From Bedellia somnulentella (Eukaryota > Arthropoda > Insecta > Lepidoptera > Bedelliidae), in contig OY755191.1 of the NCBI GenBank assembly GCA_963576735.1, positions 5,485,608 through 5,549,607 on the forward strand: DNA of 64,000 nucleotides. The letters run 5' to 3'. Shown one piece after another: positions 5,795 to 60,541 of the stretch. Both the position numbers and the translations under genes were made by a program. The notes beneath the pieces were generated by a model that was not told the DNA's origin, made no database searches, and saw only the letters and a program-made list of their open reading frames with translations. How positions within the stretch are numbered: the stretch's first letter is position 1; each line of letters starts with the position of its first letter.

Positions 5795-6027
5795 ATGTTT
5801 ATGGAGTTGACATGTTGGAGTGCTCGGCATCATCATCAACTAGTACTCAGTCAGTCTCATCAACCACTACTACAGTTTCTTCGACAGTAACTACTACAAC
5901 AACGTTAAAAATGACTTCGAAGGGGTTGAAAGATTCTGACTGTTGCATAAGGCCTTTGCAATGGGCAACAACCAAAAGAGGCGAAATCAGAGATTTTTAT
6001 CAAATATTAAAAAACGATATCAAATAA
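5795..6027 (+). CDS. Last exon of a mucin-tailed Kazal-family gene (partial)
   Basis: The exon starts after the acceptor tttgcag (5794) in phase 1 and ends at TAA 6025-6027; an AATAAA (6026-6031) overlaps the stop. It encodes 76 residues plus the split codon: one Cys near the start, a Ser/Thr-rich stretch of about 35 residues likely to carry O-glycans, then a C-C pair, a Trp, T-T and the ending E-I-R-D-F-Y-Q-I-L-K. The same layout, phase and ending occur in the last exon of the complete gene at 7065-9185, so this is a paralogue. I found no signal-peptide or Kazal-like exon upstream to position 1; those exons may lie outside the window across a long intron, or be lost. Confidence 0.7.
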
Positions 6028-6534
6028 TAAAACATATTTTTATTACCTCTTACGTAATAAATAATTTAGTTTTGATGTTCATGTTGTAATCGAAAGGTTG
6101 GCATAGGTAATATTAGTTTTGAAGATAATAAGACATGTTGCTATTTGGTACTCACTTAATTTAAGATGATACACGTAGTGGGGCTTCCACCGTTGTTTTT
6201 CAGCACAGTTAAAGCAACCTTGATTGGTAATAAACTATTCATTGGATCGGAAGAAAAACCTTTTCCCAATGGGCATCCAATTGCTTCGTAACGTAATTTG
6301 ATCCAGTTTAAATGAGCAGTAATTTGATGAATAGAGCAGTTGCGATTGCGACTAAACATAACTAATTTCGTGTAATGTTTATTTTGATCTGTGTTTGTAT
6401 ATAACGATCGTTTATGAAACCAAAGTTTTAAGAAAAAGAACATATTAAATATAATTCTTGCTTGTGGAAAATCTTATCTATTATAAATTTATAAAGAATT
6501 ATCCATTTATTATTAATTGTATTAAAGCGTTGCA

Positions 6535-6775
6535 AATCTTAAGTGGCAATGGGCAGAGGTCATTGTTCGCAACCGGCGGCCGTTGGGGCTTAAAGGTTCT
6601 GGAAAGGCGGCCACGTACCACACAATCAATGTTTGTAGGCCTCCCACAAGGTGGACTGACGACTTGGTCAAGGTCGCGGGAAGCCGATGGATGAGGGTAG
6701 CACAGGACCGGTCGTCGTGGAGATCTTTTGGGGAGGCCTATGTCCAGCAGTGGAGGTCTATTGATGATGATCGAG
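6535..6775 (+). mobile_element. LINE 3' remnant (end of the RT protein)
   Basis: The plus strand reads a diverged C-terminal end of a LINE polyprotein (G-R-P-P-T-R-W-T-D-D-L, then W-M-R-V-A-Q-D-R, then G-E-A-Y-V-Q-Q-W) and ends in a GAT-type tail. Reading-frame shifts are present. It is a 5'-truncated dead copy. Confidence 0.7.
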
Positions 6776-7064
6776 TTAGTGTCAGTTTACTTTTGACAGT
6801 ACGAAGTCTGTTGGATAAGCTAGTTTTTAATACATAAAAAAAACCGAATTTATTTACATTTTTCCTGATATTGTATCGTTATTTTGGTAAGGAAGAAATA
6901 TTGCCTGCTCTAGTTTAAACCATGTTAGTTTCGTGTATGGCTTTGAGTTCGTTTGCAATTTAATTAAGATTGTTTATGCATTTTCGATATTGTAATATAT
7001 TCTGAAATCCAGTTACCGCTACGATTTTTAGTTGATAACATGTTTTACATATCAAAGCGAAAAT

Positions 7065-9185
7065 ATGCTATTCATATTTTTAGTTTTTGTGGGTAAGTGT
7101 TTTAGTTTTTGTTGTCTCATATTCAGAATAAGAGCTTTTAAATTTAAATGATAACTGAGCACGTTTTTTGTTCTTATTTTCAGTTAATCTACCATGGACT
7201 CAGGAACATTATATTCAGGTAGTAATTAAATAAGCATCGAATCGGAGACATATTAATTGAAATTATTATCAAACTTCAACTCATCTATATCTTATATAGA
7301 TATATATATAAAATAGAAATTTAAAATAAATATAAGTTTTAATTTAAATATACATACTATTTAATAATAAATATACATACTATTATTTTCAGACATCCTG
7401 TAGTCCCTCCGATTGTTGTCAACATGACTGGGTGTCAGCGTGTGGTCACGATAAAGATAAAGGATATCGGCTATTTATCGACATCTGCGATATGAAAGAA
7501 TATAACTGTATTTATAAAACAGGTAAAACCACATCAAAAAGGATTTTCCAGAATATAACGAGACTTTTCAGATGTATGAAATACTTATAATTTGCTTTAG
7601 TTATGCCTTGATGGGGACCAAGTCATCTTTATGACTACACTGTTTCACCAAACCAACCGAGGTTGTGCTTTTTTTTTCGGGGTTCTTTACCCCCGTAGTT
7701 ATTGATCCTATCCCGACCGCCCGATCATCTGCCAGCTTAAGACCTCAGAGGCCACTCACGCTCACGGACAAAGAACATACCACTCCAAATTCCGACAATG
7801 CTAGCGATGTCGAAGAACCCACAATTTACCTCGCTTGGCCACTGGTTAAGACTCCTTCCTTTTCTCAGTCCAATATAGCTTAGATAAATACATTTTTGTC
7901 AAGCTAGAGTGGCCCTTAACTATCCGGCACATATAAACGATTTCATTATTCAAGTCATGACGAAGACGCACAGGGCAGGAGCAAACCATCATACGTACAT
8001 ATTCTCACGCCGTTAGTTCCCATTGGGGTAGGCAGAGAATATCGATCGCCACTTTGTACGATCCTGGCAAACCTCTCTAGCTTCATTCACATCCATCAAT
8101 CTTTTTATACATGCTCTTTTATTCTTCGTACTACTGACACCTGCCTTTTTGAGTACATTTTCTATTTGATCCAAATGTGTCCTCCGAGGTCGTCCTCTAC
8201 TAACATTACCTTCCATATTGGCTCTATAGATCTCTTTTACATCATCATCATCATTACAAATAAAACAAATAATTTGCCTGTTATGCATTATCTCATAAAT
8301 TAGTATGAAATCCGTTAGCTGCTTAGTGCTCTAACTCGAATACTCATGCTATGTAGTGTCGGCTTTTAATAGCACGGACCAATAACTTCCTGTAGGTGTT
8401 GTAAGAAGTGACTGAGAGAATTGGGGCCTCGAAATAATTGTTGGGTGATGTGGCTGGACGCCCATCTCCAGCCATTATTCACTTAACAATGTTTTCCCGA
8501 ATTCAACTGCTTTTTTGGATTTTGAAGGTCTGGCTACCTCTTTCTTAGGATTTATAGCCATGAGTTGATGTATTTAAGTATGCGAACTCGGTCATATTGC
8601 TATTGATATTTTGTTTCAATGAGATCTGACAACTCAGCCTTCAAAAAGACGGCTGAGACTCTATGTGATTTTAACCCATCGCTGAGAATCATATTTTTGT
8701 GTTTTTTACATATAACATTCTTTACAGATTATGTATCTGCGAATTTAACGCATTGTAAAATGAACTGTACAATGCATACAACGACTCCTACCACTACAGC
8801 CTCATCAACAACTCCAACTACTACAACTTCTTCAACTACAACTACTCCATCTACAACGACAACTTCTTCAACTACAACTACTCCAACTACAACAACAACG
8901 ACTACTCTATCTACAACAACAACTTCTTCCTCTACAACAACTTCTCCATCTACAACTACAGAAACTAGTTCATCGTCATCTATTTCACCAATGCCAAGAG
9001 AATGCTGCAACGAAATACCAAAATCTTGGGAAACAACAGCTACGGATGAAGTAAGGGACTTTTACAAGATTTTGAAGGATCGCAATACTAAAAGTGCACT
9101 GAGAGGTGTTTTTCGAAATAATAAAATCAATAGTACTAACAATTCAAGTGAGAGTGAAAGTAGTTACTTAGAAAACGACAAATAA
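7065..9185 (+). CDS. Secreted Kazal-like protein with a mucin-like tail, 216 aa
   Basis: Four exons in consistent phase: 7065-7092, 7184-7218, 7393-7522 and 8728-9185. Exons 1-2 encode a hydrophobic start (MLFIFLVFVV), split in phase 1 by a gtaagt donor, as a signal peptide. Exon 3 is the Kazal-like unit: a CC pair, then C-x7-C-G-x13-C-D-M-x4-C, with F-x-D-x-C where classical Kazal domains have Y-x-N-x-C. Exon 4 adds two more Cys, two N-glycosylation sites (NLT, NCT), about 55 residues of almost pure Thr/Ser/Pro (likely O-glycosylated), a CC pair, E-V-R-D-F-Y-K-I-L-K and a polar acidic end. AATAAA (9185-9190) overlaps the stop. The product is probably secreted and heavily glycosylated; the protease-inhibitor role is inferred from the fold only. 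Intron 3 carries an RTE fragment and a SINE-B. Confidence 0.85.
7995..8262 (-). mobile_element. RTE-like LINE 3' end
   Basis: Minus strand. The last about 75 residues of the RT protein are readable (R-A-N-M-E-G-N-V-S-R-G-R-P-R-R, ending A-Y-P-N-G-N-stop) plus the short 3' end cggcgtgagaatatgta. It lies in the third intron of the Kazal/mucin gene and is 5'-truncated. Confidence 0.8.
8358..8580 (+). repeat. SINE-B, diverged
   Basis: The head gtagtgtcggcttttaatag, the middle gttgggtgatgtggctggac and the 3' end ggatttatagccatgagttg are all present with many substitutions. It lies in intron 3 of the Kazal/mucin gene. Confidence 0.7.
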
Positions 9186-9299
9186 ATAAAATTAATTTGT
9201 GTACTTTAAATCCAATGTCTTTGATATTTACGAATGGAGTGGAGAGGCTACGTACCAGACGAAGCTGTATGGTTATGTCTCCAACAAGTTTAACTGAAA

Positions 9300-9475
9300 C
9301 ACATCAGCCACTTTTGGAAATTGAGTTGGTAAAGGAAAAAGAAAGAATGTAATGTGACGGGTCTACAGCTACATCGCCGAAAAATGCCTTTAAAAAGTCT
9401 CCTCTTACGACACCCACGGGCAGAAATATGTTAGTGCTATTCTAAGCCAACACTACACATGTTCACTAGTATTTT
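9300..9475 (-). repeat. SINE-B, 3'-truncated
   Basis: From the complement of gttgagtgggg (9320s) to the head attctaagccaacactaca at 9450-9470; the terminal tail is missing. Confidence 0.7.
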
Positions 9476-9925
9476 GTGGTATAATCAATGTACCAATATT
9501 CATACTAGTGCTCATTCAGAGTATTTCACACAATTGTTTATTAACTAAGTCCGAAATTCGTCATAAAAATTGCGTCAAGAACTGCCAAACTATTTATAAA
9601 GATGTAATCTTGGATATTTTCGTGACGAAGTAATGTATTGCAACTAGTACAAAGGTGTTCTATTGTTAGTTATTTCGATTGAAATCTTAAGGTGAACTGT
9701 AGAATTAAAGTAATGTACTTTTGTTCTTTAAACAAAAACACTTTTGTTAGTTTTTATTGCTTGTGAAATAACATTTCAGTACATTTGCCAATTCTTCAAT
9801 AATCATACTAAAGATAAAAAGTAAGTTAATACAAAGCTATTTATAATTTTCCTTTGACAAGTTTCTACATTATTATTTTCGAAAGTTTGCCAACAGCATG
9901 AGAAGTTGTACAGTTTATTCTTTAT

Positions 9926-12600: not shown

Positions 12601-12639
12601 CAGCAGCGCAGTGTGGTGTTTCTAACGTGAACCGTCCTG

Positions 12640-17086: not shown

Positions 17087-17440
17087 ATGCAAGCATTTGT
17101 TATCACGTTACTCGCGACGGTCGCAGTGGCCAGTGCTCATCCAATCCTTTTCTACTCAGAGCCTATTCACCCCATAGGAGTAGAGTATGCCCATACATCA
17201 GAACCACTAGTTCACCCTCACCCTGCAGTGGAACTAAACGCTGATAGCGAAGCACTTCTTCCTCGAGAGTTGCTGAAGTCCAAAGACTTTTATGACAATC
17301 CGGCAATTGCCGAAGGATTGGCCAAAGAGTCTTGGTTTGCCAATAAAGAGATGCAGGTGGTTGAACGTGAAGCGGAGAAGATTCCAAGACAGAAGATTTA
17401 TAACATTGTTAAAAGTGCCGGGTTTCTAGATCGCCATTAA
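17087..17440 (+). CDS. Small secreted protein of unknown function, 117 aa
   Basis: A single coding exon entered by the acceptor atattttcag at 17080, with ATG at 17087 after only six bases (agcaaa). Residues 1-18 are a clear signal peptide (M-Q-A-F-V-I-T-L-L-A-T-V-A-V-A-S-A-H), probably cut after Ala. The mature part is His/Pro/Glu-rich at first (S-E-P-I-H-P, L-V-H-P-H-P), followed by a charged region (E-L-L-K-S-K-D-F-Y-D-N-P, then E-S-W-F). It has no Cys, so it is unrelated to the Kazal-like genes around it. The look is of a small lepidopteran secretory protein; I do not recognise the family with certainty. The upstream non-coding exon is not resolved. Confidence 0.8.
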   Translation: MQAFVITLLATVAVASAHPILFYSEPIHPIGVEYAHTSEPLVHPHPAVELNADSEALLPRELLKSKDFYDNPAIAEGLAKESWFANKEMQVVEREAEKIPRQKIYNIVKSAGFLDRH

Positions 17441-20382: not shown

Positions 20383-22704
20383 TTACACTTTATTTTTGGG
20401 TATATCACAGCCGGGGCCTCCATATTGTGGTTTCTTAAAACTCCTTCCTCTTTTACACGTCACCCAACATTCATGGTGTGGTTTCTGAACATAATCTGTA
20501 AAGAAAACTAAATCTTACTTACTGGTTGGTGCAAGCGACTAGTGTTCAAATCCCGGGTGGGGCCTCCACCAATTTGTCTTTTCTAAAGACATAAGTGTGG
20601 TTAATTTATCATGGTTGTTAACAGTGAGGGAAAACATCGTGAGGAAACCCACATGGCTGAGTTGTACTTAGTCATGTGACAGTGTATTCGTACAAAACGG
20701 CGATAGGCCTGCCCCCTATCACGTGAGTACACTGTCAATGCAAAACGTGGGTACTCTGAACACCAGGTGACAAAGTCACGTGATGTTAAGAAGTATTAGT
20801 ACCTCTGCCAACCCCCTCGGGGATATTCGGTGTGAACGTTTATGTTCATGTTATGTTATGGTTTTAAGCAAAATTTATCATGAAAGGAACTTCTGGATAC
20901 AAGGCTGTATTGTAATTTAATTAACACTTTTTGACCTATATTGTTTGTCCTGTATACGAGACAGAGAGCTAATGTTGACTCAATAAATTTTTTAAATTAT
21001 ATTTTGATTTACAATAATATACTTACGCCATTAGTTCACCATCGCCATTATCAGTTCAACGTTATTTTTACGAAAAATGGTTACAGGAATATTTAAACTT
21101 TGATTATAGATGTACTAAAAAACGTACGGTTTTTTATTAGTACATCTATGAGATACACCATTATAATTTATTAAATTTAAATGAATACTTGTGAAATATT
21201 AATTAATATGTAACAAAATGGTAAGTACTTTATAGGATTATCAATAATGTACCAAATAAATTTGTCTAAATTTACATTTACCTCAAATGGTGACAGGAAT
21301 ATTAAAAAAAGGGTTAGGTTAGGTTAATATAAATTTTTGAATTAAAATAAAAGATTAAGAAATATAAACCACAGTGTCCCTACTAAAAAAACAAAGGCAT
21401 TTTAACAGTCTTCTTTATATCCCATTGTTCCTTATCTTGAAATATCGATAAAAGGTTTGGCTTAGGAAGAAAGTAGGTGAAGTGTTTTGCTCTTTTTCCT
21501 CAACCTATTTGTTATGATGTGTCAAGTTTCATAATAACGCATAGAAATACCTTAATAGTTCTGTTTATTAGCAATTTTTTGTACAAAAAATAAGCTTATA
21601 AAAGTTACATATAAATTATACGATCATAAATACATTTATACACACAAACATTTATACATACAATACATATACTCACGGCTATGAATGCCTAAAAGTAGTA
21701 GCCAGAGGCTTCAGAATAACAATTCTTCAGAACTCACTCAACTCTTGGAAGTTGAGTGACGAAAAGATGGAAGTAAAACAAAACCTGTAACCTATTTAAT
21801 TGTTTGCACTATTTATATTTAGTAGTAAAGCTTTCAGTTAAGTTGAGTAGTATACACGTTTTTGTCCCGATAAATGTTTTCGGTTTCGCTGGGATGCTCA
21901 TATCGTGATGCAATTCATCTTTCTTTGTTTAGTAGTGAATGTATTTAGTTATGTGTGAACCAATACCTTTTTTAGAGTCACAATTAAGCTCATGCATGTC
22001 ACAGGTATCGATGAAAGTTCTCATCTCACCGCAGGAGTCTATCCCACATATTGGCACCTGGTCGTGACGACAAATGTCGGCTAGGTTACACTCTTCTTTT
22101 AGCTGGAATCATATTATTTGAAATGATGATACATCATGTAATAAATCACAAAAAGGGTAGCCAGAGCTTAAAAACTAGACATTAGTCGGACTCTTTTTAA
22201 TGTTGGGCTTACATTGTTAAATAAAGTGATGGTGGTGAGAGGGATGGTGGTGGATAAAATCACCCAACAAACGCTTTAAAAAGCGACAATAAGCTGCGTG
22301 GATAAGTGCTTAGATAAGTAATGTCTAAAACGGTACTACACAGTTAAGTAATAAATAAATATTATACACTGATCAAGTTAGCCCCAAACTAAGTAAGACT
22401 TTTATTATGGGATACTAACTCAATGATACACATATAAATAACATTTATGACTATGAAACAAAAATTTATGTTTATCACATAAATATTACTCTTAGCGGGA
22501 ATCGAACCCGCAACCTCTGGACCGAGAAGACTGGACCTATCCATTGGACCACGAACGTCATCAAAATATATTTATTGATATAAGTAATCATAATAAATGA
22601 AAAAGAGAATATGTTTTGTCCAGCGTACTTACCTTTTCACCTTCAATATGGGCTGAACTATATTTAACAATTATTACAATATAAATTACAACCAATTTTT
22701 GCAT
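20383..22704 (-). CDS. Secreted Kazal-like protein with basic tail, 106 aa
   Basis: Three exons on the minus strand: 22704-22633 (24 codons), 22102-21967 and 20495-20383. Exon 1 is a signal peptide (M-Q-K-L-V-V-I-Y-I-V-I-I-V) with a gtaagt donor in phase 0. Exon 2 has the Kazal-like frame C-x5-C-x7-C-G-x13-C-D-M-x4-C plus one extra Cys in the I-D-S-C-G-E-M loop. Exon 3, entered in phase 1, gives H-E-C-W-V-T-C-K-R-G-R-S-F-K-K-P and a further Cys, so the tail is basic and Cys-containing. AATAAA on the minus strand (20361-20356) follows the stop. It is the close paralogue of the 28.6-42.1-kb gene. A small secreted protease-inhibitor-like protein is the likely role. Intron 2 (about 1.5 kb) holds a SINE-A and a SINE-B. 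Confidence 0.85.
20524..20862 (+). repeat. SINE-A lacking the first about 50 bp of the head
   Basis: Starts inside the tRNA-like part (gtgcaagcgactagtgttca) and is then complete to cggtgtgaacgtttatgttc and a TTATG tail. It lies just upstream of the acceptor of exon 3 of the minus-strand Kazal-like gene. Confidence 0.85.
21105..21147. repeat. AT-rich hairpin
   Basis: tagatgtacta and tagtacatcta flank a near-palindromic centre with cgtacg. It lies in intron 2 of the 20.4-22.7-kb gene and may be the core of a small MITE. Confidence 0.5.
21655..21790 (-). repeat. SINE-B 3' half
   Basis: Tail acatacaatacatatactca, then gtagccagaggcttcagaat and ttggaagttgagtgacgaaa; the 5' half is missing. Confidence 0.7.
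22145..22345 (-). repeat. SINE-B, strongly diverged
   Basis: The order gtagccagagcttaaaaact, gtggataaaatcacccaac and aaaacggtactacacag is kept on the minus strand, but identity is low. It lies in intron 1 of the 20.4-22.7-kb gene. Confidence 0.5.
22494..22562 (-). repeat. tRNA-like sequence (relic)
   Basis: The complement has a good T arm (gcgggttcgattcccgc, box B) and a box-A-like gtggtccaatggatagg. The two acceptor-stem sides do not pair, so it is not called as a working tRNA gene. It may be the head of another SINE family. Confidence 0.45.
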
Positions 22705-40600: not shown

Positions 40601-42082
40601 TTTATTTATAAGAAAAAAAAAAAAAATCTTTCCTTTAATAACATCTTTTATTTATGAGTTGTATGTAGGTAGTTTCAAAACTACAGCTATTGTTGGGTAC
40701 AAAAATGTCACAAAACTCTGATCTTACGAGTATTGAATATAATGAGGCTGCCAACAAAGCAGATCTCGGATTTAAAATGTAATATTCAACTATCAAAAGC
40801 ATTCTGGGTCCGATTTCCCACATTAAACAGCAAACAAATAATTACATGAAGAAAAGTTCTTACCTTTATAGCTTCACTATGTCCGTTTGCTAATGTTATA
40901 AAACAAAGAAAGAACACTGAAAAACAAAGAAAACCATTATTATTATTTATCCCTCTGCCCTTTATCGTTATTATATCATCTATATATATATATATATATT
41001 GTATCGCAATTATAATTATGATTTCAAAGTTATGTTTAATTAAAACTTCTTTAATTCTTACAATAATATATTTTTAAACAAAACGGGTACAGTTTTAAAG
41101 CCATATGAGGCTTAATTTTTAATACAAAATTTGATCATTACGAAAATTAAGCTCGATAGAATTTTGCTAGGATAGTACAAAGAGCTGATCAATAATCTCT
41201 GAAAACTCCAATAGCGTGAGAATGTTTTTAACATGAATAGTAAATCTAATGATAATTAATACTCAATACTCAATTATTTAATTAATTTAATTTAATTGTG
41301 GTAGTAACGGCTTATAAAAAAACATAGTTACTTAAAATGAAATTCCAAAAGGTGCTGGATAAGGTTTTCTGTGTTTTTATCAAGCTAATACAATTCAAAA
41401 CTCGTAAAAAACAGATGTACAATTAACTAAAGAGACTTTCTGTTCCTTTGACAAATTAAAAAGGAGATTGGTGGTTCCTTTGACAAATTAAAAAGGAGAT
41501 TGGTGGTTCCTTTGACAAATTAAACAGCAGAAGCAATCAGGCGCTAAAAATGTTAAAGACGATGGGCTCATAACTGTATTTAAAAATTTATATCTTAGGC
41601 CAGCATAGAGTTTGTATAGAGTTGAAAAAGATGGAGGAACATGTAGAAATAAAATACGGAGTAATATTTTCCTACAACCCTATATATCCTATAGCTCAGT
41701 GGGTACAACACCGCTTATCGTGCAGATGATAAGGGTTCAAATCTCGGGTCGGGCCTACACCAATTGGTCTATTCTAATCGGTTTCTATTATGGTGGTTAA
41801 CGGTGAGTAAATTTACCTATTCACTCTCTATCGAAATATCTATTGGGCTTAACCCCATTTTAAATAAAAAAGCACATTCATGATCACGGCTATAGATTCC
41901 AAAAATGGGTAGCTAAAGCTTCAGACCTCGATTTTCTTTGGCCGTTTTTGGCCATATATCACACAAGAAACCTAAGTTGCCTCATGCGATACCCTCGAAA
42001 AAACAGGTTATTGCTTTTCTTAGCCGATAAAAAAAACAACGAAGATAAGTTCAGATTCTCACTTACCAAGACTTTCTAACAT
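28639..42082 (-). CDS. Secreted Kazal-like protein with basic tail, 103 aa, huge intron
   Basis: Four exons on the minus strand fit in phase: 42082-42067 (16 nt), 40916-40864, 40122-39987 and 28745-28639. The micro-exon M-L-E-S-L joins in phase 1 to V-F-F-L-C-F-I-T-L-A to make a signal peptide. Exon 3 has the C-x5-C-x7-C-G-x13-C-D-M-x4-C Kazal-like frame with the same extra Cys (I-D-S-C-G-E-M) as the 20.4-22.7-kb gene. Exon 4 repeats its basic tail (H-E-C-W-V-T-C-K-R-G-R-S-F-K-K-P). The link between exons 3 and 4 crosses 11.2 kb and is inferred from phase and from that paralogue; no other matching exon lies between. The intron contains foldback elements and, in the opposite sense, the P-element-type transposase gene. 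Role as for the paralogue: small secreted inhibitor-like protein. Confidence 0.75.
28908..29022. repeat. Foldback element with a tRNA-like centre
   Basis: The left arm aaagaataaataaaggaaag... and right arm ...ctttcctttatttattcttt are perfect inverted copies of over 40 bp. The centre keeps only the T-arm-like ggcgggaatcgaacccgc and ggtatacgcc. A less collapsed copy with the whole tRNA-like part is at 55543-55775. Confidence 0.75.
29023..29600. other. Spacer with a possible LINE 3' remnant
   Basis: A minus-strand frame 29538-29326 (70 codons) might be the end of a decayed transposon protein. A piece at about 29470-29500 is an inverted partial match to 31158-31185 (atccgtagt...gtatcc). No gene is called. 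Confidence 0.35.
29809..30327 (+). pseudogene. THAP zinc-finger start of a P-element-type gene, with a stop
   Basis: Exon 29809-29879 (M-P-C-C-S-V-K-D-C-G, the first two zinc ligands of a THAP domain) has a gtaagt donor and joins in phase to 30246 onwards (K-F-P-T-S-E-A-R-R-R-K-W-L-D-G-V-G-F, typical THAP). The frame stops at TGA 30325-30327, just before the expected C-x2-H. The missing end of a THAP domain (S-H-F-E-K-R-F, R-L-K, A-Y-P-T-L-F) is encoded by the exon at 31478, so this was probably the 5' end of the 31.5-38.7-kb gene. It is now interrupted or mis-spliced. Confidence 0.6.
30535..30785 (+). repeat. SINE-B, full length
   Basis: Head tgtgtagtgtcggcttagaa at 30537 to tatagccgttagtaagtata near 30778. 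It cuts the mariner relic that follows. Confidence 0.85.
30781..30940 (-). mobile_element. Mariner N-terminal relic
   Basis: From ATG 30938 on the minus strand: M-D-L-T-H-E-Q-F-R-A-I-I-Y-Y-D-F-R-R-G, a mariner start. After a frameshift it reads L-K-D-D-F-K-S-V-V-V, where the SINE-B cuts it. About 55 residues survive. Confidence 0.7.
31250..31330 (+). promoter_or_regulatory. GC-rich promoter-like stretch before the transposase gene
   Basis: A C/G-rich block (ctcccctccc..., cgcccgccgccgccatttt) stands out in AT-rich surroundings, about 150 bp before the first solid exon. A weaker gccatcttag motif occurs before the THAP start at 29690. A regulatory role is a guess. Confidence 0.25.
31478..38665 (+). 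CDS. P-element/THAP9-type transposase gene, C-terminally truncated
   Basis: Ten exons stay open and in phase: 31478-31601, 33039-33152, 33533-33604, 33758-33841, 35413-35478, 35737-36167, 36397-36778, 36859-37091, 37368-37434 and 38478-38665 (587 codons). The first exon carries the end of a THAP zinc finger (S-H-F-E-K-R-F...A-Y-P-T-L-F). Four small phase-1 exons form a Ser-rich linker. The 35.7-kb exon resembles the P-element DNA-binding/oligomerisation part. Then come the RNase-H-like core (I-I-F-D-E-V-A-L-E-P-G-V with the first Asp; S-D-Q-G-S-A with the second) and the GTP-binding-insertion start D-P-P-H-L-I-K-G-V-R-N-N. The frame stops after K-P-L-R-R-A-V-T-K-K-S-E-H, followed by AATAAA near 38708, so the last catalytic part is missing. 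A domesticated or repressor-like protein, or a dead transposon. Lies antisense inside a Kazal-like gene intron. Confidence 0.75.
31661..32850. repeat. Foldback element interrupted by a TTAA insertion
   Basis: The left arm (about 31661-31790) is the inverted copy of a right arm now in two pieces (about 32040-32092 and 32748-32850). Shared blocks include atagccaccataggacc, ttgttgcatgtatattg and gtcatagcacataattac. A perfect hairpin with 17-bp arms sits at 32023-32057. It lies in the first intron of the transposase gene. Confidence 0.8.
32093..32747. mobile_element. TTAA-flanked 655-bp non-autonomous element (piggyBac-like)
   Basis: Bounded by TTAA at 32089-32092 and 32748-32751. The undisturbed arm of the host foldback has a single TTAA there. 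The ends share only cctt(t) plus partial similarity. A palindrome ggacggatccgtcc lies near the left end. No transposase is left. Confidence 0.7.
34055..34290 (+). repeat. SINE-B, diverged subtype
   Basis: cccctttctacccacgggtg at 34068, gggcgatgcggttggagacc at 34134, gatttatagccgtgagttta near 34255. It has the 'tctaccc...gggtgtcgtaagag' version of the 5' block. Lies in an intron of the transposase gene. Confidence 0.75.
35125..35275 (+). mobile_element. RTE-like LINE 3' end
   Basis: Plus-strand end of the RT protein (K-R-A, R-L-M-D-V-N-K-A-R-E-V-C-Q-D-R) and the 3' end ccccaatgggaactaacggt with tail gagaatatgtatatat. Stops and frameshifts are present. Lies in an intron of the transposase gene. 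Confidence 0.75.
37505..38335 (+). repeat. Diverged SINE-B split by a piggyBac-type MITE
   Basis: The left piece (cccttgggtgtcgtgagagc to ggttgagattcc) and the right piece (cttaacactctgattacccc to aaaggcgtgag) make one SINE-B when the 631-bp element between the TTAA sites is removed. Confidence 0.65.
37662..38292 (+). mobile_element. piggyBac-derived MITE, 631 bp, with transposase start
   Basis: TTAA at 37658-37661 and 38293-38296 flank perfect 15-bp inverted ends cacgttcactgtccc / gggacagtgaacgtg, with further internal inverted motifs around gtgaccca. At 38026-38112 a 28-codon frame begins M-S-F-L-Y-G-E-D-I-R-R-I-L-E and continues with an acidic S-D-V-D-S-E-V-S-E. This is the style of a piggyBac transposase N-terminus, cut short by internal deletion. 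Confidence 0.85.
38666..39437. other. Spacer after the transposase gene
   Basis: Contains the likely polyadenylation signal aataaa near 38708 and otherwise nothing recognised. It is intron sequence of the minus-strand Kazal-like gene. Confidence 0.4.
39449..39827 (+). repeat. SINE-A, complete, with target-site duplication
   Basis: Head aaccgtgatagcccagtggg, box B gttcgaatcc, complete body, then a ttatgtttatg-type tail. The flanks atgtcagttca (39438-39448 and 39828-39838) are an 11-bp target-site duplication. This is one of the youngest copies and a good consensus guide. Confidence 0.95.
40552..40662. repeat. Inverted repeat with a duplicated right arm
   Basis: actcataaataaaagatgtt (left) is followed by two inverted copies, aacatcttttatttataag and aacatcttttatttatgag, separated by an A-run. 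The left flank cctcatgtggggattatt links it to the tRNA-like foldback family at 28.9 and 55.5 kb. Confidence 0.7.
41442..41530 (+). repeat. Minisatellite, 32-bp unit, about 2.8 copies
   Basis: gttcctttgacaaattaa begins at 41442, 41474 and 41506; the first two units continue aaaggagattggtg. Confidence 0.9.
41687..41806 (+). repeat. SINE-A 5' third only
   Basis: tRNA-like head (atagctcagtgggtacaaca, gttcaaatctc) to gtggttaacggtgagtaa, where it stops. The 3' two thirds are absent. Confidence 0.75.
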
Positions 42083-46810: not shown

Positions 46811-49800
46811 TTAGCCGACACCAAATGGGAGATCTCTTGGGTTTGGACAAGTCTCTTCATCTTTTACGTGGCGATATACTGAAAAGTTAATAATCATTAA
46901 GCTATATTGTAAAAAAATTTATTAAAAAGATGAAAATATTAATAAATTACTTGGCTAATTTCGCCAAATCTAAAAGCAGACACAAGCAATGTTCCAAAAG
47001 TGGGAGGGCGGGAGGTGCACAGTGCATGCCGCATGAAGACTGCGGCAAATACCTGCATTTAGCGGAGTTAACAGAAGTAACTTATTAATATTTGTATTGC
47101 TATGGATTTCCGCAAAGTAACGCCAGATTCAATCCAATATCAGAAGAGTGTTTCTATTATATTAGATGATGGAGAGTCCACCTGATGTATGTATAATCAG
47201 CGGATCATATATGTATTACTGCGGCTAGAAATCGCAAGTAAATTCCTCAGCTACAAATCATTTATTTCCATTTTAAATTTAAATTAATTACTAACCCATA
47301 TTATGTTCACAGGAAAACTCATACATGTCACAAAGGTCCAAAAATGTTCTTGCCTCGTTCACAGATTTACCACATGCGATAATTTCGTCGTGATGGCAGC
47401 TGTATGCGTGGTCGCAATACCTCTTTAGTTCTGCCTGAATAATTATAGGACACATAATTAAATCGCTTTACATACTCATACTTGTTATTGGCTCTGTTGA
47501 TAACTGAATTTATAAACACTTATTGTATGATTTGTGATAGCCCAGTGGATAGAACACTCGGTTATCGTGCAAACGACTAGTGTTCAAATCCTGGGTCGGG
47601 CCTACACCAATTTGTCTTTTCTAAAGACATATGTGTGGTTAACTAATCATGGTTGTTAACGGTGAGGGAAAACATCGTAAGGAAACCCACATGGCTGAGT
47701 TGTACTTAGTCATGTGACAGTGTATTCGTACAAAACGGCGATAGGCCTACCCCCTATCACGTGAGTACACTGTCCATGCAAAACGTGGGTACTCTGAACA
47801 CCAGGTGACAAAGTTACGTGATGTTCAGAAGTATTAGTACCTCTGCCAACCCCTTCGGGGATATTCGGCGTGAACGTTTATGTTATGTTATGTATGATTT
47901 GCTGTGAGTATTCTGAACAAATAAAATAAAAATAAAATACTTTTCTTGAAAATAATATTTTGCTGTGTAGTGTCGGCTTAGAATAGCACTAACCCATTAT
48001 TTCCGGTGGGTGTACGTAAGAGGCGACTAACGGTATTGGGGATTTTTTGGCGATGCGACCTTTATTTTACCATTTCTTCCCCACTAAACTTACCAAAAGT
48101 GGCTGAGGAATTTCTAATTCCCTAGCTCTGGCTACCCCTTTAAGGATTTATAGCCGTGAGTATATGCATGTATGTATGTACTTTTGCATATAACAAGATC
48201 ATTTTTATAGATGTTAATGATACTTACTAATAAAATCTGAAACATATCTACATTCATATATTTACTTAAAAACCAGAGCCTCAGAATCAGAAACTCCAGT
48301 TTTTTTAAAGTTGAATGTGGAAAAGATGATCCCACTAAAAATATTTTCATGTAAAATGTTGCCAAGACGAGCCGATATGACTCGCACTGTCAAAAAGTTA
48401 TCAGATCTCATGTAGAGCCAAGCTTCTAACACTGCACGCCCTAACTCTACAAGGCCTAACTTCACAAACTCTACACCTTAGTCAAAATATGTGGCTTGGC
48501 CATTTCGCTACATTCACATCGGCGTAAGGTGAAAAATCAATTCACTGTTCATTACTTTTGTGTTATACAATAGTTCTTGTAGTAACGAACGGCCAAGCCA
48601 TATATTTTGACTAAGGTGTAGAGTTTGTGAAGTTAGGCCTTGTAGATTTAGGGCGTGTAGTGTTAGAAGCTTGGCTCTACATGAGATCTGATAACTTTTG
48701 GACAGTGCGAGTCATATCGGCTCGTCTTGGCAACATTTTACATGAAAATGTTTTTGGTGGGATTTCATTTCTTTTTGTAAGTTGTTTACAGCAAAAAAAT
48801 TTTTTAATTTTTTTTTTATAACCCGGAGTACCTATACATATATATGTCGCAGGAAAATCGTCAAACTCGTTAACTTATAAGTTTCCTAGGAAACTTGTAA
48901 GTTGACGGAAATCCGTCAAACAGCATGCGAATTTACATCTTACCTGATAGGTTTTAGGAAACTTGTAAAATAACGAACTAACCTCGGTAAAATTGTAAGT
49001 AGGGATCATTTTTGACAAGTTTCCGAGTTTAAAATTCTGTATTTTAGGAACTTTACAAGTTTCCTGAATCCCTCTAGGAAAGTTGTCAATGCAGCGCTGA
49101 CGGCGCGAAGAGAGGGATGTTAGTGAATGCGGATTGGCTGGCGGCGGTAACGTGACGTGACGCATTCGCGCGTCTTTTCAACTCGACAATCGAAACTAAT
49201 ATTTTTGCTAATGCTAATCTATTAATTTGCTATTATTTGCTGTAACTGACATAAAATTAAAAAGTTTTCAGAATATTTATTAAATATAAATTGTTTGAGT
49301 ATATATCGTGATACTTTATTGTTATATAGCATGAATTTAACCTTTAAGAGATGAAATGAAGATGATGAGATGAAATGAAAAACCTTTTAGATTTTTTTTA
49401 AAGAGCGTTTTAATACCGATACATACATACATACTATACTTGCGGCAATAAATCCCTAGATAGGGTGGGTGGATGTTATTCGTGAAAGGTGTGGTGTAAA
49501 AGATGATATTGTAAGAAAGATAGAAAAAGGAATGTTGAGATGGTTTGGGCACATAGAGAGGATGGATGACAGTAAAGTGGTGAAAGAGATCTATAGAGCC
49601 AATGTGGAAGGTAATGTTAGTAGAGGACGACCTCGGAGGACAGATTTAGATCAAATAGAAAATGTGCTCAAAAAAGCAGGTGTCCGAAGTACGAAGAATA
49701 AAAGAGCATGTAGGAAAAGATTGATGGATGCGAATGAAGCTAGAGAGGTTAGCCAGGATCGTACAAAGTGGCGATCGATAGTCTCTGCCTACCCCAATGG

Positions 49801-51376
49801 GAACTAACGGCGTGAGAATATGTATGTATAGGGTGGGTAACCTGACCGTCGGAATAAGAAATTTCTTAGCTAGTTTATAAAGTTAAAGGGGAAAATATTG
49901 TATTTTATATAAAGATTATTGGCGATAGGTCTCCAACCGCATCGCCTCCAATGACATCCATTGTTATAGGTTACCGCCAGAAATATGTTAGTGCTATTCT
50001 TAACCGATGCTTGTAAGATTTTAAATTATAACAAATTTACTGCATTCATAATATTTTATACCGCGGTTGTCCTAAGAGGAAACCAAAGGCTTTTTAAGTG
50101 ATTGTTAGGTGAAGTGGCTGAATACCCAGCGCCACCTTCTGATTTTAGTAGTAATTCGCTACTGTAATGTGAGTGTATGAAAAGCAAGTCAGAAGGTTTG
50201 TTCATTAACGAATGGAAACTAGTGTAAACATCCGTCATCGTAATAAATTATTTGTAGTTTACGTTTATTATTTCGTAAGACTAACGGCCAGGAAACCCTT
50301 CCTAGTCCAGTTCCTCATTTATATTTGAAAATATCACAACATTGTCATTACTTGAAATCCATGCTTTTTTTCTTTACTCAACTCACATCTTAACCAATCA
50401 TCATAAGTAACTTGTTCTATTAACAATTTCACTAGCAGCCATTAGAAGGCTTACAAATTTCCTAAATTATAAATTCAAAACTAGGAAACTTGTCAAAAAT
50501 TATCCCCACTTACAATTTTCCTGAGGTGAGTTCGTTATTTTACAAGTTTCCTAAAACATATCAGGTAAGATGTAAATTCGCATGCTATTTGACGGATTTC
50601 CGTCAACTTACAAGTTTCCTAGGAAACTTATAAGTTAACGAGTTTGACGATTTTCCTGCGACATATATATATCTGAGGGCACCAAATTTTAGATTATTAT
50701 TAGATAAGACCTCTAGCGTCATCAAAATTTAATCTTTTAAAACTACAGGTCTCATACAAACTCCCATCCCCTAGTTTAAGGGGTTGAAGGATGAAAGTTA
50801 CAAGTTTTATATTTTTTTGTTGTTTGTGTGCTAATACTAGCTTACATACAAAATTTCAGCTTTCTAGGACATTAGGAAATACCTTAATAATTTTGATGAT
50901 CATCAGTGAGTCAGTGATGACAGTGTTTTTTAGATATAAATAAAATCTGAGGTATAAAAGCTAATGTAATTAAAACTTAATATGTTCAATAAGTCCGCTA
51001 TTGATAATATATCCCGAAAATTTTGTTGATCTAGCATAATCCAAACCCAAGTTATTAGGGTTCTAAAAAACGACGAAGCGCTTCGAGAAAAGGTGGGTAG
51101 TGCCCGTGCGCTTCGCTTGGCTCGTCTTGGCTGGGGCACTATCGTGCCCCCAGATAAAAAACCCGAAGACTGTGAAATTGGTATTCTAAGCCAGCACTCA
51201 CGTTAGCACAGATATTAAAATATTTCAAAAACCATACTTTAATATAATAATATTTTTTTAAATAAAATACGGAGGCCTGTACTTACCAATTGTGTCCTGT
51301 CCCCATTCAAATGAGCTAATCCATATCTTAGACCAATCATTAAAAACATTAATTGAATTTTAAATGTATATTTCAT
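46811..51376 (-). CDS. Secreted Kazal-like protein with short tail, 98 aa
   Basis: Three minus-strand exons: 51376-51287, 47434-47296 and 46878-46811. Exon 1 (30 codons) is a signal peptide (M-K-Y-T-F-K-I-Q-L-M-F-L-M-I-G) with a gtaagt donor in phase 0. Exon 2 is the Kazal-like unit, C-x5-C-x7-C-G-x12-C-D-M-x4-C, with F-L-D-L-C where Kazal domains have Y-x-N-x-C; its donor is gttagt, phase 1. Exon 3 adds a short end (Y-R-H-V-K-D-E-E-T-C-P-N-P) with one Cys that could complete the six. It is more diverged than the two basic-tailed paralogues. Intron 1 (3.85 kb) contains a SINE-A, a SINE-B, a foldback MITE and a 1.8-kb inverted-repeat element. Confidence 0.8.
47535..47891 (+). repeat. SINE-A with a 10-bp target-site duplication
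   Basis: gtatgatttg flanks both sides (47525-47534 and 47892-47901). The head gtgatagcccagtggataga starts without the first aacc. The tail is ttatgttatgttat. A young copy, in intron 1 of the Kazal-like gene. Confidence 0.9.
47960..48180 (+). repeat. SINE-B with internal deletion
   Basis: Head gctgtgtagtgtcggcttag, then the middle jumps from tttttggcgatgcg to acctttattttaccatttc. Tail atatgcatgtatgtatgta. Confidence 0.85.
48331..48761. repeat. Foldback MITE, 431 bp, about 170-bp arms
   Basis: The ends cccactaaaaatattttc and gaaaatgtttttggtggg open long inverted arms (ttgccaagacgagccgatat, gagccaagcttctaacac, gtggcttggcc). The loop is about 90 bp. Each arm shows a parallel open frame (starting M-K-L-G-L-V-E/D-L-G-R), which is just the repeat and not a gene. 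The left flank is a SINE-B remnant. Confidence 0.85.
49420..50012 (-). repeat. SINE-B split by an RTE fragment
   Basis: The 3' end (49420-49470, catacatacatactatac to ctagatagggtgggt) and the rest (49829-50012, to ctattcttaaccgatgctt) form one minus-strand SINE-B. Confidence 0.75.
49471..49828 (+). mobile_element. RTE-like LINE 3' end with target-site duplication
   Basis: The plus-strand frame 49471-49807 is open to the natural stop: D-V-I-R-E-R-C-G-V-K, M-L-R-W-F-G-H-I-E-R-M-D-D, R-G-R-P-R-R-T, ending A-Y-P-N-G-N. Then come ggcgtgagaatatgtatgta and the tail. The flanking atagggtgggt repeats on both sides (left ends 49470, right starts 49828). The intact end suggests a recent insertion. Confidence 0.9.
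50671..51180. repeat. Interspersed repeat-like stretch, unclassified
   Basis: The phrases ctcccatcccctagtttaagg and tttcagctttctaggacat, and the terminal GC-rich gtgcgcttcgcttggctcg, look like a common lepidopteran interspersed repeat. I cannot assign a family. Confidence 0.35.
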
Positions 51377-52788: not shown

Positions 52789-52790
52789 AT

Positions 52791-54040: not shown

Positions 54041-54299
54041 TGACGTATAAGGAATAGTAAATGAGAGAATAAGTCTTTACTCATTATAGTTTATTCCTTT
54101 TGAATATTGACCATATCTTCAAAACATTATCTTCAGCGTAAGAATATGATTTAAATATAATAACAATATCATAAAACTACGCTACATTACATTTCCTGAA
54201 GTAAACACGCTCTAAAACTAAAAGAATGATAACTTTCAATATATTGAATTTACTACACTACTGATAAAAATTACTAAGTCTTCATTAAAACACGTGTAA

Positions 54300-57200
54300 T
54301 TAATCATCATAATAATTATTTAGTGGTCTTCGTGAAGCTGTTAACATAGATTTGTCTTCAGGACATGGAGTCTGTCGGTAATCTGAAAAGACAAGCAAAG
54401 ATGTAGATGGACAAAATAATAAATTAAATTAAAACATTTTGAATCGTGTCAGATTGCAATCAAAAGACAGATTAAATAGATTCTAGGACATTATTGTATC
54501 ATTAAAATATAACACCATTGGGTGTACATGTACAAAATAGTTTTATCAGATTGTTTAAGAAGAAATCTTTTGTAGTAAAAATTGTTGTGTGCTCAATGAA
54601 TCAATTGTAATAATCTTTCTATTCTCCTATTTATTATATGATCATTTATACAATTGCTATTCGTTTACATGCAGAAACGCTAAATTATGCTGTCACTCCC
54701 AAGTTTAAATTCCGAAGCTAGATTACAACTGATATTTTACATAACGAACATTAAAGGAAGAAAGTATTTTATCCCCACACTTCTTCTCCGAATAAAATTG
54801 TACACAAAAATGTCACAAAAGTAAAGAATAAATTAAGGATAAATTAGAAATTATCCCCACATGAGGTTTTCATGAACAAAACATTCTAATTACATGTCAC
54901 CTTTATGTCACAAAAGTGGGGCCCAGTGAAAGATGCAATCACTTCCTAGCTTAAAATATGTTATTTTAGTTGTTTAAGTCTGTTTTTAATATTTTTTATG
55001 CATGTTTGTGTCCTCAAGAGGAAAATAAAGTATTTTTCTTTCTTTCTCAAAGTCCACAGCTGCATCACAATTAATTTTCACACTAACATACATACATACA
55101 TATACTCACGGCTATATTTCCCTAGAAGGGGTAGCTAGAGCTAAGGAATTATAAATTCCTCAGCCACTTTTATAAGTTGAGTGGGGAAAAGATGGTAAAA
55201 ATAAAGGTTTTTGGTGATGGGTTTCCAACCGCATCGTCCTAAAATCCAATAAAAAGCCTCAATACCCTTAGTCGCCTCTTACGACACCCGTGGGTAGAAA
55301 GGGGTAGCGACATTCTAAGCCGGCACTACACGGCAAATTCCCTTAAACGTAAGAATATATTTTCATCTACATACTTCTCCTCCTAACGCAGTTGTAGTCA
55401 AACATGTCGCAAAGATCTCTGAAGCCCATGACGTCACCGGAGTGGCTCAGACCACAGATGGGCACGCGGTCGTGGTTGCAGGACTTGGCCAATGAGCACC
55501 ATTTGGTTCCCATCTGGAATATAATAGGTTATCATAGTGGTAATAAATAAAGAATAAATAAGGGAAAGAAAAATTTCGACACAGGCGGGAAACGAACCCG
55601 CGAACTCGGGTATACGCCCCGACGCTCTGCCAATTGAGCCACCGTGTCAATGGCTGCCAGCGCGAAATTCTTCTATCCTTTATTTCTTTTACACGTTTAA
55701 GTAGTGTTCCCGCCTGTGTCGAAGTTTTTCTTTCCTTTATTTATTCTTTATTTATTAGTAATAAGCCCCACATGAGGTTTTCATGAACAAAAAGATTTAA
55801 ATTATCATATTATTTTATTTGTAGTGTTGGCTTAGAATCGCACTTCTATTTTTTCCCCGCAGGTGGCATGTGAGGTGATAAAGGGATGGGGTTGTTTAAG
55901 CTGTTTTTAGGCGATGCGGCTGGAGACCAAAATACCTTCAAAAGTAGCTAAGAAATTAATAGTTCTTGAATGCTGCCTACCCCTTTTTTTTAGAATATAT
56001 AGCCGTGAGTATGTAACTATTCTGGCCATAAATTCTGTTTTTATTTATATATGCCGTGTAGTGTCGGCTTAGAATAGCACTACCCCATTTCTTCCGGTGG
56101 GAGTACGTAAGAGGCGACTAACGGTATTGGGGCTTTTAAGGGATTTTTGGGCGATGCGGTTGGAGACCCATCACCAACAACCTTTATATTACCATCTTTC
56201 CCCACTAAAATTTCCAAAAGTAGCTGAGGAATTTTTTATTCCTTAGCTCTAGCTACCCCTTCTAGGGATCTATAGCCGTGAGTATATGTATGTATGTATG
56301 TATTTTTTATAATTTTTTGAATGTTGAACTTGGAACAATGCTATGTCTTTTTGTTCATTGAGAGTTACGTTTTGCAAAACTGCAAGATATTTGTAATTAA
56401 TTTAATATTATAAAATTGAGTGGGTTGTTAAAGAAGCTAAACCTTGGCGCTATCGTTCATTTTCAATTTACAAATGTCTTAATTGCGGTTTATTTAATAA
56501 CAGATAGTTAGCTAGTATAACAGTGTTTTAAACAATATTTTAAAGAAACATTTTACCTTTCTTCCCATATTGATATCTTCACGGTCACGATCTTTTGGTG
56601 GTCCATGGCAGTATATCACCGACCACGTGCAGCTTACGATCATAACAACTTGAAAAATTAAGCATAGGAACATAATTATGGTAAATTATTTACAGCTACA
56701 TTTTTCATCCTATATATATACTAAATAATTAAATAATAATTTTGGAACAATATTAAAATACTAAATGTAAACTATAATCAATATTAAAAAGTAGGCGATG
56801 TTCAATACATGATTATTGTAACAGGATGATTTAATTTCAAAATAATGGGGTCAAATCGTCGAACCTCCCCATTTTATTTTAGGTATGATGCAAAACATAT
56901 TCCTTTTAACCGACTTCGAAAAAAGGAGTGTTCTCAATTCGACCGTATTTTTTTTTTGTGTTTTTTCGCCGATTACTTTTGCCGATTGGTACCATGATGG
57001 GTACCAATCGGCAAATGATATTGGGGTCTGATGATGGAATCCTGGAGAAATCTAGGGGAACCCTCAAACTTTATATTGGCATTTGCTTCTGAAAATCATA
57101 TTCTTATGCTGCTGAGCTGATGATGGAAGGTGTGGGTCCTCAATCACTAGGAGTTAGGAAACAGTTCTCTTCATAGCTTTTATGAAGAGAAGTACAGGTT

Positions 57201-58358: not shown

Positions 58359-58503
58359 TATTCTTCCGTTCTCAACCCCTTTCACAGCTAAACTGACTTC
58401 GATAAAACAACTATTAATAACGAAAACTTCGTTGACAAACATATTCTATTGTCTAGTTTATAACACCCTGTACTCTAGGAAATAATAAGTAGTTAAGTTA
58501 TTA

Positions 58504-60541
58504 CTATAATGTTGGTAATTGCTCGCACTTCCACGCACTGGCTATGTCGTAGCCTGAAACCAAATATAAACAGACAATTTTCACACGGTTAATTGTATAC
58601 ATGCATATACTCACGACTTGAAAAGAGTAGCCAGAAGCAGATAAAGGTATATTAAGTTATATAGCCATGAACATTGCCGTGTATGGCCGGCTTAGAATGT
58701 CACTACCCCTTTCTACCCAAGGGTTTCATAAGAGACGACTAAGGGTATGGGGCTTTTTTAAGTAGTTTTTGAACAATGCGGTTGGAGACCCGTCGCAAAC
58801 GATACTTTAATTTCTACTATTTTGGTCCCTATCAACTTCCAAACGTAGCTGAGGATTTTTAGCCCTGAAGCTCTGGTCACCCCTTTTTAGGATACATGTA
58901 TGAATGTTGAATCCAAAAAGACTGGCATATTAAGTAAGAGTGTATTTTTTAAACCAAGTTGTAGATAACCACGCTACGGACTTAACCATATTCCAGTTCT
59001 AAAATTATTGACCACATTATTGGTTTTCTAGAAGATTTGATTTAGATCTCGCAGTTTGTGTTTATGAAGAAAAACTAAAATTTTGCAGAAATAAAGAACT
59101 AAAATCTATAGATTGGAGTTTTTTTCAAGCGTCATAAGGTAACATAACAAATAATTTAACTTACTTGTGCGATACTGGCAGTTAAATTCGATGAGATCAC
59201 AAATATCGAAGAACCGTCGCACATACGTCGTTTTGGAGTCAAAACCACATATCCCTTTGCCGCTGTGAACGCACATTAAGGCGTCATAACAGGTCATCTG
59301 ATAAAGGCATAATACAAATGTGAGTTTACCTTATAAAACAAATTAAATTAAAATAAATATTTAAAAAAAAAAGTATTCGGTCCATTTCCTGCCAGTACGA
59401 GCCACCATAAGGCGGAAAGTGAGTGTGATGTTTCTTTTCATAGTTAGAAAAGCCTCTAGATTTTTTCACCAATCAATGCGCTCTTTTTCAACTACATACA
59501 ATGGCTGTGTAGTGTCGGCTCAGAATAACACTACCCCATTTCTTCCGGTGGGTGAACGTAAGAGGCGACTAACGGTATTGGGGCTTTTTGGGATTTTTGG
59601 GCGATGCGGTTGGAGACCCATCACCAACAAACTTTATTTAACCATCTTTTCCCCACTCAATTTTCCAAAAGTGGCTGAGGAGTTTCTAATTCCTTAGCTC
59701 TAGCTCCTCTTCTAGGGATTTATAGCCGTGAGTATATATGTATATTTATACAAAGGCTGGAAATGGGAAATGAATCCACGATCTTAACGTTTGATGAACC
59801 CTCAATGTTAACCATTTATAGCAACTTATCTTTACCCCAGTCCTTACCCATCAAATGCGATCTTAAGTGCCAGAAGAGCATTGCCTTTGAAAAAGGGTAA
59901 TTAGTTCTGTATGCTCCCCATCAAGTTTAATAAATATCTCAATGCAAAAAGTGGGTTCTAATTCTGAGTCAGGCCTACTTCAATCTGGTTTTATTAAATT
60001 ATGTTAGTGGTTTATTGTTAAGACAACACAAAAGTTAGGGAAAACATCGTAAGCAAGCCATGTATGAGATATCCTATCCAGGCACAAGGGGGTGAACACA
60101 ATGTAACAGAATGTCACGTGATCTCTGCTAGCCTTTAATGGCTGTATGGCTTGAATGATGAACCTAAGAGTTATAGATAGATAGATAAAACCTAACTTCC
60201 ATTATATCGGACCTACTAAAAATAACACAATGAGTTTAATTATAAAAATATAAAAATAGTGAGAAAGCCTACTAGCCAATCATGGCCGGATTAAGGGGAG
60301 GGCTCTTTTTTGCATCAAGGCCCTTAGACAAGTAGCCAATTTAACTGAATGTTGTGCATCACATCTTTACAAATGGAATATAAATCAATTCGCTTGTTTT
60401 CATATCGTAGATCCAAGAGTACCTTACACGTATAATGATAGTATGTTTGGACGTTCTAACTATTACCTGTAAAATAGGGCTTCCTAATGTCTCTTGCAGA
60501 AAATATGTTAGAAGTAGATGAAAGAAAATCATAATTTCCAT
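58504..60541 (-). CDS. Secreted Kazal-like protein with very short tail, 85 aa
   Basis: Three minus-strand exons: 60541-60467, 59297-59165 and 58553-58504. Exon 1 (25 codons) is a signal peptide (M-E-I-M-I-F-F-H-L-L-L-T-Y-F-L) ending in phase 0 at a gtaata donor. Exon 2 has the Kazal-like frame C-x5-C-x7-C-G-x14-C-D-L-x4-C, with F-F-D-I-C at the Kazal Y-x-N-x-C position; donor gtaagt, phase 1. Exon 3 gives only Y-D-I-A-S-A-W-K-C-E-Q-L-P-T-L, whose Cys may complete the six. It is the smallest and most diverged member. The two introns carry SINE-B copies (58.7 and 59.5 kb) and a decayed SINE-A. Confidence 0.8.
58677..58905 (+). repeat. SINE-B, older subtype
   Basis: gccgtgtatggccggcttag, cccctttctacccaagggtt, gaacaatgcggttggagacc and ctctggtcacccctttttag are in order; the tail is very short. 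A tiny minus-strand 3' piece lies just before it at about 58600-58635. Confidence 0.75.
59502..59745 (+). repeat. SINE-B, complete
   Basis: Head ggctgtgtagtgtcggctca to gatttatagccgtgagtata. The body is close to the common form. It lies in intron 1 of the 58.5-60.5-kb gene. Confidence 0.85.
59950..60165 (+). repeat. SINE-A, strongly decayed
   Basis: gttctaattctgagtcaggcc, agggaaaacatcgtaagcaa, tgtcacgtgatctctgctag and tggcttgaatgatgaa follow SINE-A order with large gaps. Confidence 0.6.

Follow-up and report, generated by a model that had tools for sequence, protein, structure and literature searches.

Kazal-type inhibitors fall into subgroups defined by the spacing of their cysteines, the non-classical forms being those with a wider C4-C5 spacing. 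The Kazal fold sets a central helix against a three-stranded sheet, its disulfides pair cysteines 1-5, 2-4 and 3-6, and proteases are inhibited through a loop that resembles a substrate. Among the described members closest to the proteins considered here is CrSPI-1 of the horseshoe crab, a two-domain inhibitor whose domain 1 belongs to non-classical group I, contains two disulfides and, according to the sections consulted of its structural report, sits in the active site of subtilisin with His3 at P1; in the register used there, P3 is the loop's opening cysteine and P1 lies two residues further on (PMC3082530). Human SPINK9 (LEKTI-2) was also reported with a P1 His (PMC12670400) and has a narrow target range: in the portion of the report at hand it inhibited KLK5 and did not inhibit KLK7, KLK14, trypsin, chymotrypsin, plasmin or thrombin (PMC2631147). 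In the lepidopteran Kazal inhibitors BmSPI59-68 of Bombyx and PxSPI45-56 of Plutella, P1 varies where it is given, taking the form of Lys, Arg, Tyr, Phe, Ala or a residue of the Ala/Val/Gly class (PMC3278429, PMC5309989). We analysed a stretch of 64,000 nucleotides (nt) from the moth Bedellia somnulentella (contig OY755191.1, positions 5,485,608 to 5,549,607; hereafter the window) that carries a cluster of genes for secreted proteins with a Kazal-like domain. Judged by its sequence, this is a cluster of divergent Kazal-type proteins, i.e. of a known kind, and an initial annotation of the DNA had correctly seen it as a real one. The explanation that we favour, and consider reasonably probable, is an old lepidopteran cluster of secreted Kazal-type protease regulators of fixed specificity, for which we infer inhibition, target and tissue.

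Six genes and an orphan last exon share one plan. The genes are named after their orthologous groups, i.e. F (at 7.1 kb of the window), A (22 kb), B (40 kb), C (47 kb), D (55 kb) and E (59 kb); F is on the + strand and A, B, C, D and E are on the − strand. Each begins with a signal-like segment (signal peptides were assessed via hydrophobicity or by eye, without a dedicated predictor), followed by one phase 0→1 exon with the pattern C-x5-C-x7-C-x13–15-C-x6-C and by a last exon, which holds the sixth cysteine in 6/6 gene models, as had been supposed. The domain exons measure 130 (F), 136 (A and B), 139 (C and D) and 133 nt (E), all being entered in phase 0 and left in phase 1. All six models close in frame; the arithmetic given in the initial annotation for the joins 28+35+130+458, 72+136+113 and 75+133+50 is correct, each sum being divisible by three, and the CC pair that it noted in the domain of gene F is real. 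When the six-frame translation of the window was searched for C-x5-C-x7-C-G-x(11-15)-C-x6-C, the pattern was found six times, exactly at the six domain exons, against none in 100 first-order Markov simulations, a count that excludes chance only, the pattern having been derived from these same genes. This search and the exon models bear out the claim of six genes and one last exon with a shared architecture.

A profile search of 562 candidates (E up to 10) returned 80 homologues, 71 of which had already been found at E up to 1 among 249 candidates. The 75 homologues with species names represent 45 species of moths and butterflies (counted from the printed names), and we take all 75 to be lepidopteran; Plutella, whose placement was looked up, belongs to Ditrysia, Yponomeutoidea. 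As the search depends on exact words in common and on similar protein length, relatives beyond Lepidoptera may exist. The orthologues are annotated as ‘uncharacterized’, ‘hypothetical’, ‘unnamed’ or ‘Kazal-like domain-containing’, and one as ‘putative extracellular nuclease’. No such cluster was described in the open-literature titles and abstract starts that were searched, which is weak evidence as subscription journals mostly, and supplements, were outside that scope, and a literature search for six locus ids of orthologues returned no paper naming them. In a tree of the domain cores (63 rows, 44 columns only), window genes were placed with their groups for C (support 95/90), D (100/100), E (95/86, where long branches meet) and B (96/97), F not being placed; gene A falls among the A rows, and group A is the remainder around B, without a support mark of its own. 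The cysteine pattern of a Kazal domain, with C2-x7-C3 and C4-x6-C5, is borne out by the 88 complete cores counted, P0010 and P0064 being without one, and by the presence of the sixth cysteine in all six window genes.

Several comparisons tie these cores to the Kazal family. Pfam Kazal_2 matches at E up to 1 were obtained for 19/43 members (best 8.9e-4), for 8/18 of the core set (best 0.002) and for two of the six window domains. Searched against 177,635 Protein Data Bank (PDB) sequences at E up to 10, the core profile matched only 2n17 (E 0.017) and 3pis (E 0.5), both of them Kazal proteins, and two other profiles matched 2n17 alone (E 0.0058 and 0.016); one profile aligns all six cysteines with 2n17, and two others span C3 to C6. 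With hhalign, the core profile scored 83.6% against three Kazal domains, 0.08% against the same three reversed as a decoy, and 0.2% against bovine pancreatic trypsin inhibitor, which has another fold. The best PDB match, 2n17 (‘Lysozyme-Protease Inhibitor Protein’), itself passes the Kazal_1 and Kazal_2 cut-offs; it shares C3-x13-C4 (as in group C), C4-x6-C5 and RTF..PCDL..YNC with the lepidopteran proteins, but has C1-x3-C2, is without His at P1 and, unlike this family, passes the Pfam Kazal cut-offs. A literature search found no paper on 2n17. The long loop before F-x-D/N-x-C, pointed out earlier as a departure from classical Kazal domains, is present, but 2n17 shows that a Kazal chain can have it too. 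Kazal homology is thus supported by sequence, but distant.

The second PDB match leads to the reactive loop. Chain D of 3pis (‘Kazal-type serine protease inhibitor SPI-1’) would, from its letters, be CrSPI-1 domain 1, which has the same C-x-H-x-x-x-P-V-C-G loop with a P1 His and differs in having C3-x10-C4 where the moth family has x13-15. In the CrSPI-1 register, P1 is His in 88/88 cores and P1' is Asp in 86/88, whereas P2 and P2' vary; the remaining loop is canonical (C2-x7-C3, mostly V-P-x-C-G). The likeness to SPINK9, which also concerns the P1 His, is by description and not by sequence.

We then asked how conserved the groups are. Median identity of the window core to its orthologues reaches 89% in A (20 orthologues), 92% in B (10), 78% in C (18) and 86% in D (32), and the label ‘fast-evolving’ given in the initial annotation therefore fails for A–D. 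For gene E, identity to orthologues is 53%, and it looks from these two comparisons as if E evolves faster than A–D. Counted from the first core cysteine on, there are nine cysteines in 22/22 full A and B models (14 A, 8 B) and six in 40/40 full C and D models (14 C, 26 D), the window's own included. The earlier statement that everything after the domain is swapped holds between groups but not otherwise: genes A and B have one tail in common, gene F and the orphan exon another, and tails are conserved within orthologous groups. A comparison of non-synonymous (dN) and synonymous (dS) divergence between paralogues, suggested in the same annotation, succeeded in part. For A versus B within the window, the NG86 method gave dN of 0.119 for the domain and 0.231 for the tail, dS being saturated and not computable, and YN00 likewise yielded no ratio, mostly for reasons of saturation; with LWL85, dN was 0.143 and dS 1.667 for domain and tail combined. 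The A–B dN being far below dS, and the tails keeping their cysteine pattern within groups, argue against rapid evolution and random tail swapping. On these sequence comparisons, four of the six genes (A–D) are old and constrained, not fast-evolving.

The order of the genes also appears to be shared. Fused gene models join B to A in Plutella (P0001) and Operophtera (P0010), D to C in Spodoptera exigua (P0002) and E to D in Euphydryas (P0003), Aphomia (P0004) and Operophtera (P0008); combined, they give the order E-D-C-B-A, the same as on the − strand of the window. Locus tags agree in Phthorimaea (A 03205, C 03208), Plutella (C 005151, A 005153), Loxostege (A 008375, C 008378), Choristoneura (D 011930 and 011931, C 011932), Mythimna (C 008926, D 008927) and Aphomia (C 004718, E-D 004719), and in S. 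exigua they pass from B (004274) to D (004275), skipping C, which may be unannotated there. Identical printed sizes suggest that in Danaus (A, C, D), Vanessa (A, D) and other species the groups are on one contig. The conserved order is thus a composite that we infer from gene models and tag numbers rather than from coordinates.

Taken together, these data would fit an old tandem array of genes for secreted Kazal-type proteins of one domain each, running E-D-C-B-A along one strand, and the mucin-tailed relative F close by on the other. The array would have arisen by duplication before the sampled lepidopteran lineages (Plutella onward) diverged; purifying selection would then have taken hold of copies A to D, with a distinct tail fixed in each, except that A and B still share one. 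Each protein would present the loop C-x-H-D-x-V-P-x-C-G to a serine protease as other Kazal inhibitors do, in the way of a substrate. With P1 fixed as His and P1' as Asp, the targets would be a narrow set of endogenous proteases, either subtilisin- or furin-like or else kallikrein-like, and not changing foreign ones, and P2, P2' and the differing tails would set the paralogues apart in specificity. That P1-His Kazal inhibitors of narrow range exist favours such fixed-target regulation of proteases over an arms race.

Several observations weigh against this explanation, beginning with the fold. No member with a printed bit score reaches a Pfam Kazal cut-off (the highest Kazal_2 score is 17.2 against 22.8 bits, for P0077), and three of the six window domains, taken alone, matched no family. 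The 3pis match is not significant by itself, and the hhalign score owes most to 2n17 (71.6% by itself), ovomucoid domain 3 alone giving 1.8%. DUF19 was matched by 5/43 members (best E 0.0021), and in the double protein P0001 termicin (Toxin_37) reached 22.6 bits (cut-off 25) with an E of 9.5e-5 and ten tail residues, Kazal_2 having 0.0094 there. An AlphaFold model of the full precursor P0007 (43-row alignment) was all-helical and unreliable (predicted local distance difference test, pLDDT, 70; predicted template modelling score, pTM, 0.47); one led by P0077, a homologue without a signal peptide (53 rows), was worse (pLDDT 48, pTM 0.27), and a Foldseek search with these poor models gave three matches, all with E above 4 and none of them Kazal. 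The wording ‘Kazal-like’ in the initial annotation consequently stands as far as sequence goes, and lies below the curated cut-off and outside any confident structure. The missed cut-offs, the weak DUF19 and termicin matches and the low confidence of the models would also suit a cysteine-rich fold that arose independently in Lepidoptera and came to the same spacing by convergence; however, the only PDB matches are Kazal proteins, all six cysteines align with one of them in one profile alignment, and the decoy and the trypsin inhibitor stayed negative, and we give this alternative a very small chance.

If the fold is Kazal, inhibition may still have been lost, with the His-Asp loop retained for structure or ligand binding in an extracellular protein of the matrix or of signalling. 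An invariant P1 could indeed mean a structural loop: P1 tends to vary among Kazal inhibitors and is never His in the moth Kazal proteins for which the consulted parts of the two surveys give it (PMC3278429, PMC5309989), while here it is His throughout even though groups A and D, for example, agree in about half of their residues. A large part of the 88 cores, moreover, are close orthologues. The P1-Glu domain 2 of CrSPI-1 binds subtilisin tighter than the P1-His domain (PMC3082530), and a P1 His was described as suboptimal for KLK5 (PMC12670400). On the other hand, working P1-His Kazal inhibitors do exist and the rest of the loop is canonical, which leaves lost inhibition possible, although rather unlikely. 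The explanation originally offered, a fast-evolving arms-race family with swapped tails that serves defence, saliva, silk or reproduction, finds some footing in the divergent core of E, in gene F, which has a mucin-like tail and was without a homologue in one search, and in the orphan F-like tail, which suggests rearrangement. It is already contradicted for A–D by their strong conservation, in the tails as well, among the Lepidoptera sampled, and by the A–B divergence, and the lack of kin for F is weakly founded; as an account of the cluster we consider it improbable. Three further points tell against old, fixed-specificity regulators: outside the window, group E has been seen in just three species (Euphydryas, Aphomia and Operophtera); all five groups in order are seen in the window and in no other single species; and the expected tail is absent in 16/80 single-core models (A 6, B 2, C 4, D 4), mostly truncated-looking, so that conservation was measured on the other 64 (the 80 are what remained of 86 proteins after six with two cores or none, P0001, P0002, P0003, P0008, P0010 and P0064, had been skipped).

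The model of gene F rests as a whole on splice sites and frame. It comprises a 28-nt exon 1 with the start of the signal peptide (7065..7092, +; donor GTAAGT, fitting frame), a 35-nt exon 2 (7184..7218, +; splice sites and frame), the 130-nt Kazal-like exon (7393..7522, +; cysteine pattern and phases) and a 458-nt last exon (8728..9185, +) with the sixth cysteine, a Thr/Ser-rich mucin-like stretch and the tail CC...W.TT..EVRDFYKILK. The orphan exon (5795..6027, +), the putative last exon of a seventh, F-like gene, follows the acceptor TTTGCAG and reads xVYGVDMLEC, then a Thr/Ser-rich part and CC...W.TT..EIRDFYQILK, so that the two exons have in common a C-terminal module that is Thr-rich and then CC...W.TT..E(I/V)RDFY(K/Q)ILK. 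As its frame closes just upstream, the orphan exon should be a spliced one; the six-frame pattern search revealed no Kazal-like exon upstream of it or elsewhere in the window beyond the six. A reading of 8619-9185 as a single-exon mucin was set aside as the less likely one, since the orphan exon at 5795 begins in a similar way and has its start fixed by a splice acceptor. Residues 1-80 of gene F returned no homologue in an insensitive search that required three shared 5-residue words, and full-length F-like proteins fell outside the wider profile search, which considered proteins of up to 1.75 times a length of 109 residues; these limits are why the absence of kin carries little weight. In the homologue model P0060, FYKILK precedes a group A domain, probably by chance.

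On the − strand, gene A has a 72-nt exon 1 with the signal peptide (22633..22704) and AHIEGEK, which resembles AHVDGAK of orthologues, a 136-nt Kazal-like exon (21967..22102; cysteine pattern, phases and tree) and a 113-nt last exon (20383..20495) with the sixth cysteine and the CWVTCKRGRSFKKP tail, supported by orthologues. Gene B (−) would begin with a tentative 16-nt exon 1 (42067..42082; splice site and frame only), followed by a 53-nt exon 2 (40864..40916) with the end of the signal peptide and GHSEAIK, of which HSEAIK is identical in Pieris P0006, and a 136-nt Kazal-like exon (39987..40122) with a core 89-95% identical to 10 orthologues; its 107-nt last exon (28639..28745; DFKQRPIHECWVTCKRGRSFKKPEFRTDCN, near identical to orthologues) lies 11.2 kb downstream of the rest, past P-element-like transposase pieces. 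The latter (Tnp_P_element; TNP-like RNase H) are at 35715-36807 (+), on the opposite strand within the 11.2-kb last intron. Between genes B and C there is a fragment of an RVT_1 reverse transcriptase (44116-45198, −).

Gene C (−) consists of a 90-nt exon 1 (51287..51376) with the signal peptide and HLNGDRTQL, resembling HLVGDKAHL of orthologues, a 139-nt Kazal-like exon (47296..47434; cysteine pattern, phases and core comparison) and a 68-nt last exon (46811..46878) that carries the sixth cysteine and is conserved in orthologues. For gene D (−), the 117-nt exon 1 with the signal peptide and HGPPKDRDREDINMGRK, resembling HGPPKERDNEDIAMGRK of orthologues, was placed at 56557..56673 because orthologues carry a similar first exon; a rival signal-like frame at 57616 was rejected for the same reason. 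The 139-nt Kazal-like exon (55375..55513; cysteine pattern, phases and core comparison) and the 83-nt last exon (54300..54382; NYRQTPCPEDKSMLTASRRPLNNYYDD) follow, the tail being recognised in 26/30 single-core D models, the window's included. A weak match (E 0.016) to the last part of this domain of gene D is seen at 54817-54782. ARAGORN called a tRNA-Tyr-like gene at 55576-55649 (−), in the first intron of gene D and immediately upstream of the domain exon; GGTTCGWTTCCCGC boxes are also found at 28953 and 22508, and these are perhaps tRNA-derived repeats. Gene E (−) has a 75-nt exon 1 with the signal peptide (60467..60541) and a 50-nt last exon with the sixth cysteine (58504..58553), and a 133-nt Kazal-like exon (59165..59297) that groups in the tree with E of Euphydryas, Aphomia and Operophtera.

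Elsewhere, the window contains further transposase- and retroelement-like frames, a 569-codon open frame rich in Gln, Lys and Leu-Pro (1668-3377, +) and, between genes F and A, a secreted-looking 117-codon open frame (17087-17440, +; MQAFVITLLATVAVASAHP...), the last two without a Pfam or NCBIfam match. In all, NCBIfam gave no match for 7/7 proteins scanned.

Returning to fixed-specificity regulators, nine cysteines in A and B predict one that is unpaired, and the proteins may perhaps form disulfide-linked dimers. It would be a long shot to go further and propose a previously undescribed, Lepidoptera-wide system of pH-sensitive Kazal regulators, in which the invariant P1 His and P1' Asp would render binding pH-dependent, as in the course of the silk gland or gut, and A and B would form disulfide dimers via the ninth cysteine. 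The invariance of a residue that usually sets Kazal specificity is in any case an oddity that can be tested. Some of the 45 species are pests and, if the genes are linked, one-to-one and constrained, they would offer a small, defined set for single knockouts or assays.

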